A DNA stretch of 64,000 nt, taken from contig NC_014831.1 in the NCBI RefSeq assembly GCF_000184705.1, positions 2,604,001 through 2,668,000 of the forward strand, given 5' to 3'. The position numbers were made by a program, and so were the translations under genes. The DNA is from Thermaerobacter marianensis DSM 12885. Lineage in GTDB: Bacteria > Bacillota > Sulfobacillia > Thermaerobacterales > Thermaerobacteraceae. Positions 47,766-52,692 of this stretch are shown piece after piece. The number at the start of each line of letters is the position of its first letter. Within the stretch, counting starts at the first letter, position 1. The notes under the pieces were generated by a model. The model was given only the letters and a program-made list of their open reading frames with translations, was not told the DNA's origin and ran no database searches.

Positions 47766-50459
47766 TCATTTCACCACCACGTTGACCAGTCGTCCCGGCA
47801 CCGTGATCACGCGGGCCACGGTCTTCCCGTCGAGCCAGTCCCGGACCCGCGGGCTGGCCAGGGCCCGCTGGCGCAGTTCCTCTTCGCTGAGGTCCGCCGG
47901 GACCTGCAACCGGTCCCGTACCTTGCCGTTGACCTGGACCACGATCTCCACCGTGCCTGCTTCCAGCACGGCCGGGTCCCACGCCGGCCAGGGCTGCCGG
48001 TGGACGCTGCCCCTGGTGGCGCGCCAGCCCAGCAGCTCCCACGCTTCCTCGGCCAGGTAAGGCGTGAAGGGCGCCAGCATGCGCAGCAGCCGGTCCAGGG
48101 CCGCCGCCAGCAGGTCGGCCCGCTGGGCGGCCGGTTCCACCCGGTCGCGGTAGCCGTAGATGGCGTTGACCAGCTCCATCAGGGCGGCCACCGCCGTGTT
48201 GTACTGCATGCGCTCGGCGATGTCCGTCGTCACCCGGGCGATGGCGCGGTGCACCTCGCGCCAGAGGGCCTGTTCTTCCGGACCCCATCCCTGCATGGCC
48301 GGCTGGATCTCCCCCGCCCCGGCCGCCGCGGCACCCGGCCGCGCCCCCGCCGGGCCCGTGCCGCCCCGGACGTCCGTGGCCGCGTTCCCGTCCTCACCGG
48401 CGGCGCCTGCCAGCCCACGCCCGCCGGCCCCTGCAGCGTACCCGGCCGTCACGGCCCCCACGGCCTCCGCCACGGCGCCGTCCCGGGCCGCCGCCACCTG
48501 GCCCGCCGCGCCCCGGATGGCCTCGGCGCACCCGGTCACCAGCCGCCAGACCCGCTGGACGAACCGGCTGGCGCCTTCGATGCCGTGCTCCGACCACTCC
48601 AGGTCGCGCTCGGGCGGCGCCGCGAACAGGATGAACAGGCGGGTGGCGTCGGCGCCGTACTCCTCCAGGATGTCCTCGGGGCTCACCACGTTGCCCTTCG
48701 ACTTGGACATCTTGGCGCCGTCCTTGATCACCATGCCCTGGGTCAGCAGGCGCCGGAACGGCTCGGGGCTGGGCACCAGGCCCTCGTCGTAGAGCACCTT
48801 GGTGATGAACCGGGAGTAGAGCAGGTGCAGGACGGCGTGCTCGATCCCGCCGATGTACTGGTCCACCGGCAGCCAGTAGAACACCTTTTCCCGGTCGAAG
48901 GGCTGATGCTCGTCCCGGGGCGAGGTGTAGCGGTAGTAGTACCAGGACGAGTCCACGAAGGTGTCCATGGTGTCCGTCTCGCGCCGCGCGGGCCCGCCGC
49001 AGGACGGGCAGGTGGTGCGCACGAAGGACTCGGACGTGGCCAGCGGAGAGGCTCCCACCTGGAAGCGTACGTCATCGGGCAGGAGGACCGGCAGCTGGTC
49101 TTCGGGCACCGGCACGATGCCGCAGCGGTCGCAGTAGACGATGGGGATGGGCGCCCCCCAGTACCGCTGGCGGGAGATCAGCCAGTCCCGCAGCCGGTAG
49201 TTGACGGTGCGGCGGCCGATGCCGCGCCGTTCGAAGTCCTCGGCCATGCGCCGGTAGGCTTCCCGGCTGTCCATGCCGTCGTAGGGGCCGGAGTGGATCA
49301 TCCGCCCGGGCCCCGTGTAGGCCTCCTCCAGCCGGTCGCCGTCGGCCGGCACCCCCTCGCCCTGGATCACCACCCGGACGGGGAGCCCGTACTTGCGCGC
49401 GAACTCGAAGTCCCGCTGGTCGTGGGCGGGCACGGCCTGAATGGCGCCCGTGCCGTAATCCATCAGCACGTAGTTGGCCGTCCAGATGGGGATGCGCTCG
49501 CCCGTGACCGGGTTGATGGCATAGGCACCGGTGAAGACGCCCTCCTTGGCGTCCAGCGCCTCCGCCCTGTCCCGCACCGTCAGCCGCGTCACCCGCTCGA
49601 CGAAGGCGCGCACCGCCGCCTCCTGTTCCGTCCCCCGCGCCAGCTCCAGGGTCAGCGGGTGGTCGGGGGCCAGCACCATGAAGGTGGCCCCGTAGACCGT
49701 GTCGTGGCGCGTGGTGAAGACCGTCAGCTTCTCGTCCCGGCCGGCGATGGGGAAGTCCAGCTCCATGCCCTCGCTGCGGCCGATCCAGTTGCGCTGCATC
49801 ACCTTGACCCGCTCGGGCCAGCCCTCCAGAAGGTCGAGGTCTTTCAGCAGCCGGTCGGCGTAGGCGGTGATGCGGAAGAACCACTGTTCCAGCTCGCGCT
49901 TCTCCACCGGCGTGCCGCAGCGCCAGCAGGCGCCGTCCTCCACCTGCTCGTTGGCCAGCACCGTGGCGCAGCGCGGGCACCAGTTGACGGGCGCCTTCTT
50001 CCGCTCCACCAGCCCCCGCTTGTACAGCAGGAGGAACAGCCACTGGGTCCACTTGTAGTAGCCGGGGTGGGAGCAGGCGATCTCCCGCCGCCAGTCGTAG
50101 CTCAGGCCCAGGCGCTGCATCTGCTCGCGCATGGCGGCGATGTTGGCGTAGGTCCACTCCGCCGGGTGGGTCTGGTTGGCGATGGCGGCGTTCTCCGCCG
50201 GTAGCCCGAAGGAGTCCCAGCCCATGGGGTACAGGACGTTGTACCCGCGCATGCGGAGGAACCGGGCCGTGGCGTCGCCGATGGAGTAGTTGCGCACGTG
50301 GCCCATGTGGAGCTTGCCCGACGGATAGGGGTACATCTCGAGGCAGTAGAACTTCGGCCGCGACGGATCGGCCTCCACGTGGTAGAGGCCCTCCTCCGCC
50401 CAACGCTGCCGCCACTTCTTCTCGGCGGCGTGAAAGTTGTACCGGTCGTCGACGGCCAT
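47766..50459 (-). CDS. leuS: Leucyl-tRNA synthetase
   Basis: Class I synthetase charging tRNA-Leu. 897 residues: HIGH-type motif HMGH at 51-54 (YPYPSGKLHMGHVRNYSIGD), zinc-type CPRC/CWRC region, the CP1 editing domain (ATFMVLAPDHPLT, DYGTGAIQAVPAHDQRDFEFA), KMSKS (AKMSKSKGNVVS) near 580, and the anticodon-binding C-terminus. An Ala/Gly-rich insert of about 70 residues (coordinates 48300-48500) lies in the anticodon domain. ATG at 50459 is favoured over the ATG at 50465 by spacing from AGAGGAGG. Controlled by the T-box leader upstream. Confidence 0.98.
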   Translation of the reverse strand: MAVDDRYNFHAAEKKWRQRWAEEGLYHVEADPSRPKFYCLEMYPYPSGKLHMGHVRNYSIGDATARFLRMRGYNVLYPMGWDSFGLPAENAAIANQTHPAEWTYANIAAMREQMQRLGLSYDWRREIACSHPGYYKWTQWLFLLLYKRGLVERKKAPVNWCPRCATVLANEQVEDGACWRCGTPVEKRELEQWFFRITAYADRLLKDLDLLEGWPERVKVMQRNWIGRSEGMELDFPIAGRDEKLTVFTTRHDTVYGATFMVLAPDHPLTLELARGTEQEAAVRAFVERVTRLTVRDRAEALDAKEGVFTGAYAINPVTGERIPIWTANYVLMDYGTGAIQAVPAHDQRDFEFARKYGLPVRVVIQGEGVPADGDRLEEAYTGPGRMIHSGPYDGMDSREAYRRMAEDFERRGIGRRTVNYRLRDWLISRQRYWGAPIPIVYCDRCGIVPVPEDQLPVLLPDDVRFQVGASPLATSESFVRTTCPSCGGPARRETDTMDTFVDSSWYYYRYTSPRDEHQPFDREKVFYWLPVDQYIGGIEHAVLHLLYSRFITKVLYDEGLVPSPEPFRRLLTQGMVIKDGAKMSKSKGNVVSPEDILEEYGADATRLFILFAAPPERDLEWSEHGIEGASRFVQRVWRLVTGCAEAIRGAAGQVAAARDGAVAEAVGAVTAGYAAGAGGRGLAGAAGEDGNAATDVRGGTGPAGARPGAAAAGAGEIQPAMQGWGPEEQALWREVHRAIARVTTDIAERMQYNTAVAALMELVNAIYGYRDRVEPAAQRADLLAAALDRLLRMLAPFTPYLAEEAWELLGWRATRGSVHRQPWPAWDPAVLEAGTVEIVVQVNGKVRDRLQVPADLSEEELRQRALASPRVRDWLDGKTVARVITVPGRLVNVVVK

Positions 50460-50551
50460 GACCATTGCCTCCTCTTTCCGCTTGGCTGCCTGGCAACGGG
50501 GGTGGACCCGGGGCGCAAGGCCGGCGAAGGCTGCCGCCGAGCGGGCCGGCC

Positions 50552-50904
50552 GGGCCCATAACGCCGGGAGCCTCCCGTCCCCAAGGGACGGGAGGCTCCC
50601 GCGGTACCACCCTTCTTGATCAGTGTGGAGCGGATGGGACTCGAACCCACGACCTCGTCAATGCCATTGACGCGCTCTCCCAACTGAGCTACCGCCCCAC
50701 GCGTCTGACCCACTCGTGCCCTTAACGCGGGCGACGTCGCCGGCTCCGGCGGCGGCTTCCTGCCGCCCTGCCCTCGCCGGCGCGGCTCCCGGGCGAGTTC
50801 CCCTGCCGCGTACCGCCGGTTTGCACCGCCACCGGCTCTCTGGGGGCCGCCGGCAGGGTACTGCTCCCGTTCACGGCCTTTGCGCATCCGGTTGTCGAAC
50901 CGCG
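50552..50904 (-). promoter_or_regulatory. T-box riboswitch, leucine specifier, upstream of leuS
   Basis: Landmarks in transcript order are as follows. AGTA is at 50859-50862. Stem I arms CCCTGCCG (50851-50858) and CGGCAGGG (50801-50808) are perfectly complementary. The distal AGAGAG is at 50836-50841, with CCGGT/ACCGG closing a 10-base loop. GAA is at 50798-50800 and the specifier CTC (Leu) at 50795-50797. A IIA/B-like region follows, with GTTAA (50722-50726) and GAGTGGG (50709-50715). The T-box sequence AAGGGTGGTACCGCGG is at 50599-50614, with a UGGU bulge suited to A73-CCA of tRNA-Leu. The terminator has a 15-bp perfect stem (50566-50580 with 50586-50600). Stem III is replaced by a whole tRNA-Ala gene. 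Confidence 0.92.
50626..50698 (-). tRNA. tRNA-Ala (GGC)
   Basis: 73 bases folding as a canonical cloverleaf: acceptor GGGGCGG with CCGCTCC, D-arm GCTC/GAGC with an 8-base loop, anticodon stem CGTCA/TGACG with loop ATGGCAT giving anticodon GGC, 5-base variable loop, T-arm GTGGG/CCCAT with loop TTCGAGT, discriminator A73. The G3-U70 wobble pair that marks alanine identity is present. CCA is not encoded (the flank reads CAC). It lies inside the leuS T-box leader, 10 bases after the GAGTGGG element and 11 before the antiterminator sequence, with no promoter or terminator of its own that I can see. Confidence 0.96.
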
Positions 50905-50910
50905 TAGCCC

Positions 50911-50940
50911 ATTATAGAGAGCGTGCCGCCGCGGTGTCAA
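50911..50940 (-). promoter_or_regulatory. Sigma-A promoter of the tRNA-Ala/leuS transcript
   Basis: Consensus -35 TTGACA (50935-50940) and -10 TATAAT (50911-50916) with an 18-base spacer, the best promoter in the window. It begins 41 bases after the rsfS stop. The transcript would start near 50904 and carry Stem I, tRNA-Ala, the antiterminator and leuS. Confidence 0.93.
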
Positions 50941-50980
50941 GGCGATGCGCGGCGCCGCCGCTTCGCCGCACCGCCGGCCC

Positions 50981-51346
50981 TCACGAGCCCGGCAGGGACT
51001 CCAGCTCCAGCCGCCGGGCATCGCCCCAGAGCCGCTCCAGAGCGTAATACTCGCGCTCCGCCGCCAGGAAGACGTGCAGCACCACGTCGTCGAAGTCCAG
51101 CAGTACCCACCGGGCCGCGTCGTATCCCTCGCGGTGGCTCGGCATCTGGCCCTGCTCCGCCAGGTCTTCCTCCACGCCGTCGGCGATGGCGCGCACGTGG
51201 ATGGGATTCTGCCCGTGACAGATGACGAAGTAGTCGGCGATCAGGGTGAGGCCCTCCATGTCGAGGATCACGACATCCGCCGCCTTCTTCGCCTCGGCCG
51301 CCCGCGCGATGGCCAGCGCCTTCTCCCGGCTGGTCAACCGCCTCAT
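50981..51346 (-). CDS. rsfS: Ribosomal silencing factor RsfS
   Basis: Binds ribosomal protein L14 and blocks subunit joining during starvation. 121 residues with the DUF143 signature KKAADVVILDMEGLTLIADYFVI and REGYDAARWVLLDFDDVVLHVFLAAEREYYALERLW. ATG at 51346 overlaps the LCP gene stop (ATGA); a TTG at 51337 with better ribosome spacing is an alternative. Last gene of the obg-nadD-yqeK-LCP-rsfS set. Confidence 0.96.
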   Translation of the reverse strand: MRRLTSREKALAIARAAEAKKAADVVILDMEGLTLIADYFVICHGQNPIHVRAIADGVEEDLAEQGQMPSHREGYDAARWVLLDFDDVVLHVFLAAEREYYALERLWGDARRLELESLPGS

Positions 51347-52692
51347 CCCTCCCTGGTGTGCGGTGCCGCCCCCGTGGCCGCACTGCCGGCGGCGCTGCCG
51401 GTAGCGGTCCCGGTAAAGTCTTGCCCTACGACGATGCGCGCGTCGACGCCCTCGGGCAGGTCCGCCGTCGTCTCGACCCGGACCGAGGCCGCGGCCGGAT
51501 CCAGCACCTGCCGCAGCCGCTCGCCCACGTCGGTGTCGCCGGGCCGGACCAGCACCGTGGTCTCCTGGAAGTCGAAACGGCCGGCATTGCCCACGGTGAC
51601 CACCTGGAAACCGTATCCGCGCAGCAGGTCGGCGGCGCTGCTGGCCGCACCCCGGCGCCCGTTGCCGTTGAGCACCTCCAGGCGCACCTGGGCGTTGGCC
51701 TCCACGTCGATGCCGGCCAGGATCTTCATCGCCTCGCGGCGGGCCTCCTCCGGTTCGACCAGCCAGTAACTCAAACCGTCCAGGTAGCCCGGCCGCCCCG
51801 GCAGGATGCCCATCTCCAGCGCCGACGGGTCGAACTTGGGCAGCAGGGCGACCAGCCCCAGCATGCGGCTGGTCGGCATGTCCGTCGTCACCTGGCGGCC
51901 CAGGGTGCTGGCCAGCTGGGGCAGCTTCAGGACGCCCTGCATGCTCAGCACCTTGTCCACCAGCGCCTTGAGGAACTGCTGCTGGCGCTGGATGCGGAAG
52001 ATGTCGCCGTCCTGGCGGTACCGCACGTACTGCAGCGCCTTGTCGCCGTCCAGCGTCTGGCATCCGGGCTGCAGGTCGATGCGCAGGTTCTGGCTGCGGG
52101 CGGTGTAGTGCATCGGCTTGTCGATGCAGACCTCGACGCCGCCCACGGCGTCCACCAGGGCCCGGAAGGCGTCGAAGTCGACCTCGACGAAGTAGTCGAT
52201 CTGGATGCCCAGGAAGTTCTCGACGGTCTCGGCGACCCGCCGCGCGCCGGCCCCGGGCCCTCCCTCGGCCTGGCCGTAGGCGTGGGCGTGGGCGATCTTC
52301 TCAGGCTCGGGCCGGCCGGGGATCTCCACCCGGGTGTCACGGGGGATGGACAGCAGGCCCACCCGGCCCGTGGCGGGGTTCACGTTGACCACCATGATGG
52401 TATCCGAACGCTGGGGCGCAGGGGGCTCACCGGCACCGGCCCCGGCATCCACCCCGAGCACCAGGATGTTGATCGGCCGGTCGGCCACCACGCCGGGCTG
52501 CTCTTGCGGCTGCGGATCCGGCGGGACCTGCTGCACGCTGCTGAAGAACCCGTAGAGGGTCGAACCCAGCCACCCGGCGGACACGACGCCGGCGGCCGCC
52601 AGCACCGCCGCCACCACCAGCAGCACCCGGCCGGCCTTGCGGCGCCGGCGCTTGGACTCTTCTTTCATGGGCCCAACCAGCGGCATGCTCAC
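51343..52692 (-). CDS. LytR-CpsA-Psr (LCP) family cell-wall ligase
   Basis: Membrane-bound phosphotransferase that attaches anionic polymers to peptidoglycan. 449 residues: short basic cytoplasmic tail, one membrane span (RVLLVVAAVLAAAGVVSAGWLGSTLYGFF), the LCP domain (NILVLGVD, RSDTIMVVNVNPATGRVGLLSIPRDTRVEIPG, KIAHAHAYG, GDKALQYVRYRQDGDIFRIQRQQQFLKAL) with its conserved Arg and Asp residues, and a C-terminal LytR_C domain (ANAQVRLEVLNGNGRRGAAS). GTG at 52692 has AAAGGAG 9 bases upstream. Placement between yqeK and rsfS is common in Clostridia. Confidence 0.94.
   Translation of the reverse strand: MSMPLVGPMKEESKRRRRKAGRVLLVVAAVLAAAGVVSAGWLGSTLYGFFSSVQQVPPDPQPQEQPGVVADRPINILVLGVDAGAGAGEPPAPQRSDTIMVVNVNPATGRVGLLSIPRDTRVEIPGRPEPEKIAHAHAYGQAEGGPGAGARRVAETVENFLGIQIDYFVEVDFDAFRALVDAVGGVEVCIDKPMHYTARSQNLRIDLQPGCQTLDGDKALQYVRYRQDGDIFRIQRQQQFLKALVDKVLSMQGVLKLPQLASTLGRQVTTDMPTSRMLGLVALLPKFDPSALEMGILPGRPGYLDGLSYWLVEPEEARREAMKILAGIDVEANAQVRLEVLNGNGRRGAASSAADLLRGYGFQVVTVGNAGRFDFQETTVLVRPGDTDVGERLRQVLDPAAASVRVETTADLPEGVDARIVVGQDFTGTATGSAAGSAATGAAPHTREG

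Follow-up and report, generated by a model that had tools for sequence, protein, structure and literature searches.

Transfer RNAs that share a transcript with other genes are known from tRNA–mRNA co-transcripts and from rRNA operons, where the tRNA is excised by RNase P and 3′ enzymes and leader and trailer pair around it. In such transcripts the tRNA is located beside genes, whereas in the leader described here it is located within a ligand-sensing RNA. The canonical leuS T-box (RF00230; for example, loci L194, L200 and L209) shares with this leader Stem I, the CTC specifier, the RRRxG-Stem III-AA motif, the T-box core, the hairpin and the leuS gene, and rsfS is often found upstream. However, the canonical Stem III carries a small loop, while here it carries a complete tRNA gene. 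According to the recent structural studies covered by the review PMC7583486, the charge-sensing discriminator is given as 5′-RRRxG-Stem III-AA-3′, located 5′ of the antiterminator. Insertions of unknown structure and function are noted in that review for every T-box domain, and none of them is described as a functional tRNA gene.

The layout of a tRNA within a T-box was not found by term search in the T-box database paper, a T-box review and a T-box survey. No earlier description of it was found in the open-licence literature searched either, which agrees with an earlier note on this DNA, made from its letters, that knew of no such T-box. The T-box itself is of a known kind, and the novelty lies in one of the domains of the switch being a complete tRNA gene.

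Organization of the leuS Leader

The window (the whole 64-kb stretch of DNA that was analyzed) belongs to a genome of 2,844,696 bases in one contig. The leader and the genes flanking it are located on the minus strand. A promoter, TTGACA-18-TATAAT, with a 12/12 sigma-70 match was found at 50940–50911. No other sigma-70-like site was found in the region 50200–51200 and hence none between Stem I and the tRNA, as expected from the single upstream consensus promoter proposed in the earlier note. The ORF upstream of the leader (50981–52063) was attributed in its C-terminal part to rsfS (TIGR00090, 105.5 bits, residues 251–346). The gene downstream (47766–50465) is leuS, encoding leucyl-tRNA synthetase (TIGR00396, 1079.5 bits), in agreement with the same note.

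The Rfam cmscan search revealed a T-box match at 50883–50581 (77.8 bits, E 1.5e-16), which covers the full model (positions 1–219) and contains a 79-nt insertion within Stem III. A match to the tRNA model (50698–50626, 63.3 bits) was found inside the T-box match, and the embedded tRNA was classified by ARAGORN as tRNA-Ala with the anticodon GGC, the sole tRNA of the 64-kb window. Both Rfam models match the same RNA, ARAGORN agrees, and the T-box leader with a complete tRNA inside that the earlier note had described was thus confirmed. Stem I (50883–50785) was aligned with positions 1–103 of the RF00230 model, and the predicted CTC (Leu) specifier was found in the Rfam alignment at 50797–50795. 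This specifier, to be read by tRNA-Leu(GAG), fits the regulated amino acid, with a tRNA-Leu(GAG) gene in the genome and LeuS downstream.

Stem I is followed by the Stem II and IIA/B region with CGUUA (50784–50716; Rfam alignment, consensus of alignment A1). The order of the subsequent elements in the window is GAGUG-GGUCAG-ACGCGU-tRNA-CA-CUGAUC-AA-GAA-GGGUGGUACC. Here, GAGUG (50715–50711) corresponds to the 5′-RRRxG discriminator element and AA (50617–50616) to the 3′ part of the motif, as given in PMC7583486, so that the discriminator motif is kept around the tRNA. The strands of Stem III, GGUCAG (50710–50705) and CUGAUC (50623–50618), were assigned by MFE folding and covariation. The tRNA-Ala(GGC) gene between them (50698–50626; Rfam, ARAGORN, alignment) is 73 nt long and has G3-U70 and A73, and CCA is not encoded. 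According to the Rfam alignment, the antiterminator AGGGUGGUACCGCGGGAGCCUCCCGUCCCU is located at 50613–50584 and begins with the T-box core AGGGUGGUACCGCG (50613–50600), in which the UGGN bulge is present as UGGU (50609–50606), the bulge that pairs with tRNA ACCA ends.

A second T-box match in the window (L004; 6866–6959, minus strand, 38.4 bits) contains Stem I only. No embedded tRNA was found at the other T-box matches of the genome. In the T-boxes L005, L006 and L007 (G000 84362–84849, 1067643–1068070 and 1007758–1008204), Stem I is separated from the antiterminator by about 300 nt that contain no tRNA; these middle domains are expanded and very GC-rich.

A perfect 16-bp hairpin (50600–50566; −44 kcal/mol for the segment, z −5.2) shares strands with the antiterminator, and the two structures are mutually exclusive. 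It is followed by GGCGUUAUGGG, with at most three T per 8 nt, which falls short of the U-tract of an intrinsic terminator. A U-rich stretch (at least five T per 8 nt) was found after the hairpin region in 74 of 86 loci, and the window is among the 12 without it. The terminator that the earlier note had placed before leuS, with 15 bp, is in the window a 16-bp hairpin that lacks a U-tract. The absence of the U-tract makes termination at this hairpin uncertain. A U-tract is not required of every T-box, and termination in the window may occur without it or in another mode.

The T-box score of the window is below the Rfam gathering cut-off of 93, which is a curated threshold and not a structural feature. 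For this reason, the tRNA alone was reported in the window at the gathering threshold. Orthologues with the same tRNA insertion score 94–133 bits, above the cut-off. The low score and the hairpin without a U-tract could mean that only the tRNA matters and that the T-box is a fossil. This is very unlikely, since the specifier, the T-box core, the discriminator motif and the covariation of Stem III persist across great distances, and in relatives with true T-box losses (L198 and L211) the core and Stem I have vanished. By the defining sequence features tested, the leader is a T-box; the only exceptions in the window are the missing U-tract of the terminator and a score below the Rfam cut-off.

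Stem III and the Embedded tRNA

Unconstrained folding of 50725–50605 led to the cloverleaf together with a 6-bp GGUCAG/CUGAUC clamp. RNAalifold recovered the cloverleaf from the 60-sequence alignment but not the Stem III clamp; for this reason, pair counts and swaps of duplexes were used to examine the clamp itself. It was found that 80% of cells were paired in the Stem III columns 41–45/174–178, compared with 19–50% for slid partners, and that 67 cells carried a double change, whereas shuffles gave a mean of 22. In addition, duplexes of a locus's own 5′ and 3′ flanks (−11.3 kcal/mol) were more stable than swapped ones (−8.0 kcal/mol; Wilcoxon p 7e-6, 62 dereplicated loci). Stem III is therefore retained, with the tRNA as its loop. 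The earlier note had correctly located the tRNA at the site of Stem III, but its view that the tRNA takes the place of this stem has to be revised in light of the fold and the covariation. The clamp would keep the discriminator folded despite the 73-nt guest tRNA.

The set of loci used for comparison contained 89 members, 21 from the class of the window and 68 from the matches listed of a wider scan, with a few overlaps. All 89 carry a tRNA-Ala(GGC) with G3-U70, A73 and 7/7 acceptor pairs. In 60 of 60 aligned sequences, the pairs of the cloverleaf are intact except for a G-A at one D-stem position in four of them, and compensatory changes were found at 13 tRNA pairs. Judged by the sequences, both the T-box of the leader and the tRNA are under selection.

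The earlier note had also suggested that the ACCA end of the embedded tRNA matches the UGGU bulge in cis, in which case alanine status or the nascent tRNA would control leuS. The presence of A73 at all 89 loci and of an encoded CCA at 64 of them is in line with this idea. However, CCA is not encoded at the other 25 loci, and the encoded end after the tRNA in the window is A-CAC rather than ACCA; thus, pairing with UGGU in cis is not a conserved feature. There is also a mismatch between the GGC anticodon and the CTC specifier, which indicates that the embedded tRNA is not the ligand. Moreover, its end continues into the transcript and thus offers no free 3′ end, and tRNA-Leu, the discriminator base of which is also A73, already accounts for the UGGU bulge. 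Sensing in cis is therefore extremely improbable, and this claim was abandoned.

Of 59 positive genomes, 57 gave a single match to the tRNA-Ala(GGC) pattern, and two, both from Ktedonobacterales, gave two matches. The match is the embedded copy in 26 of the 26 cases checked. The genome of the window contains only one other GGC tRNA (G000:C1:16087–16160; L044 2088–2164), which has G3-C70 and not G3-U70, so that the embedded gene is probably the sole true tRNA-Ala(GGC) of the genome. The embedded tRNA-Ala gene is also probably essential. The other GGC tRNA has the acceptor GCGCCGG/CCGGCGC on an odd body; it is probably not charged with alanine and is perhaps a mobile-element tRNA.

In Ktedonobacterales and a single further member of Chloroflexota, the embedded tRNA-Ala(GGC) is preceded, at a distance of about 300–400 nt, by a tRNA-Ala(CGC) (L135 3114–3188, L088 4012–4085, L106 5715–5789, and, on the minus strand, L134 992–1065 and L066 2780–2855). 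Two alanine tRNAs thus flank the T-box Stem I in these loci.

Distribution of the Layout

To survey other genomes, 84,980 species genomes were scanned with a pattern that consists of a T-arm, 20–50 nt and the T-box core and is neutral to tRNA identity. Among the matches listed (80 loci), 68 contained an ARAGORN tRNA ending 8–33 nt before the T-box core. All of these 68 listed tRNAs are Ala(GGC), and no other tRNA identity was found inside a T-box among them. In a spread sample of the phylum of the window, the tRNA-then-T-box pattern was found in 82 of 398 genomes and the reversed control gave no matches, which excludes chance; among the matches listed of this sample, all but G166:C52, which has no tRNA, have an Ala-type 3′ end. 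The pattern was also found in 9 of 61 genomes of the Ktedonobacter phylum, and the leader with the tRNA occurs across the class of the window. At least 89 loci share the layout, 62 after the removal of near-copies.

The loci are labeled as Bacillota, Chloroflexota, Atribacterota, Coprothermobacterota, Caldisericota and Armatimonadota, that is, at least six phyla. The record titles name Syntrophomonas, Thermosyntropha, Desulfofundulus, Symbiobacterium, Ktedonobacter, Sphaerobacter and Anaerolineae, as well as Atribacteria, Coprothermobacterota, Caldisericota, Armatimonadetes and one Actinomycetota MAG. The locus L095 comes from a MAG titled Proteobacteria that is grouped with the Ktedonobacter phylum in the genome collection; titles of single MAGs should therefore be treated with caution.

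LeuS is encoded 3′ of the leader in 80 of the 89 loci, and most of the other nine run off the end of the locus. In three of the 80 (L081, L104 and L122), a distance of about 2 kb precedes LeuS. The CTC specifier was found in 85 of the 89 loci by a regular expression, and inspection of the sequences located it nearer the tRNA in L079, L125 and L141. These three leaders are very short, with Stem I passing almost directly into the tRNA-bearing Stem III, and they seem to be without Stem II and the IIA/B region.

A promoter-like site (at least 9/12) was found upstream of the leader in 72 of the 89 loci. Clearly internal promoter-like sites (TTGTCG-17-TATAAT or CATAAT, 9–10/12) are located between Stem I and the tRNA in four Ktedonobacterales loci; the tRNA may have its own promoter there and may be made independently. 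One weak internal site was found in L100. The other sites at a distance of up to 150 nt from the tRNA correspond either to the upstream promoters of leaders that are short or to weak matches (9/12).

Evolutionary History of the Leader

To evaluate the history of the leader, 30 genomes of the phylum picked for the absence of the tRNA-then-T-box pattern were sampled. One state of their leuS leaders is a T-box without a tRNA (for example, L194, L200 and L209), and the Stem III of L209 is a plain hairpin, GGTAATTTATTACC. A second state is a tRNA-Ala without a T-box (L198 and L211), and in a third state neither T-box nor tRNA was found by the simple patterns used. In L198 and L211, a relict of the T-box hairpin sequence is located 3′ of the tRNA, and the T-box core and Stem I are gone. 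In L211, CCTCGTCCCTAGC...GGTGAGGATTTTTTT comes after the tRNA and can be read as a remnant of this hairpin, which indicates that the T-box was probably lost there and the tRNA kept.

In the unrooted LeuS tree (95 rows), the tRNA label needs 11 changes, compared with 24 expected if shuffled, and most of the Chloroflexota/Thermomicrobiota carriers are located away from those of Bacillota. The nesting seems to be old and to have changed repeatedly. It is compatible with a single old origin followed by repeated losses, with a degree of transfer, or with both, between which an unrooted tree cannot discriminate. In L064 and L097, a LeuS of a divergent lineage follows the same leader and tRNA, a picture suggestive of a replacement of the synthetase gene under the leader.

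The existence of relatives with the T-box only and with the tRNA only indicates that neither part needs the other. Together with the variable linkers (10 to 106 nt among the loci), these relatives allow us to consider neutral parking: the tRNA would occupy the variable loop of Stem III through an accident of history, have no effect on the switch and be kept only as the sole tRNA-Ala(GGC). This explanation shares the dual-output layout discussed below and denies a benefit of the nesting. However, the same tRNA is found in the same loop across several phyla, and essentiality of a single copy would explain its retention but not the rarity of its relocation. We consider neutral parking about equally likely to be right or wrong.

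Proposed Mechanism

The leader probably works as a dual-output T-box, in which tRNA-Ala is made constitutively and leuS is attenuated via uncharged tRNA-Leu(GAG); we infer this dual output, the canonical control by tRNA-Leu and the following order of processing. Transcription from one promoter would yield Stem I, Stem III with the housekeeping tRNA-Ala(GGC) as its apical domain, and then the antiterminator/terminator and leuS. The tRNA is located before the decision point and, from its position, would be expected from every transcript. In turn, transcription would extend to leuS only if uncharged tRNA-Leu(GAG) connects the UGGU bulge with the CTC specifier. The transcript of the tRNA gene would, in the OFF state, be terminated by the T-box hairpin, and RNase P and 3′ processing would then release the tRNA. 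Their cuts would fall between the two sensing halves of the leader, and the Stem III duplex and bound tRNA-Leu could hold the cut halves together.

The cut sites between Stem I and the antiterminator, and a clamp able to keep the halves joined after cutting, would also suit a switch coupled to processing, in which pre-tRNA folding or cleavage by RNase P and 3′ enzymes times the decision or alters the stability of leuS mRNA. However, the decision would be made about 60 nt past the 3′ end of the tRNA, probably before cleavage, and such coupling seems rather unlikely. To a similar degree, it is doubtful that the embedded pre-tRNA contributes actively to the switch, with its folding and processing setting the time of contact between Stem I and the antiterminator, and that tRNA maturation and leucine sensing are thereby coupled in a single ancient RNA common to several phyla.

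Irrespective of the choice between these readings and the preferred dual-output leader, the finding relates to Stem III, which is now known to be an essential element of charge sensing by the T-box. It also explains why a search at the curated threshold reported only a tRNA here. The leader shows that a complete housekeeping tRNA gene can serve as a structural domain of a riboswitch and be retained there through very long periods of evolution, and it may provide a natural system in which RNase P, 3′ processing and a co-transcriptional decision would compete on one RNA.
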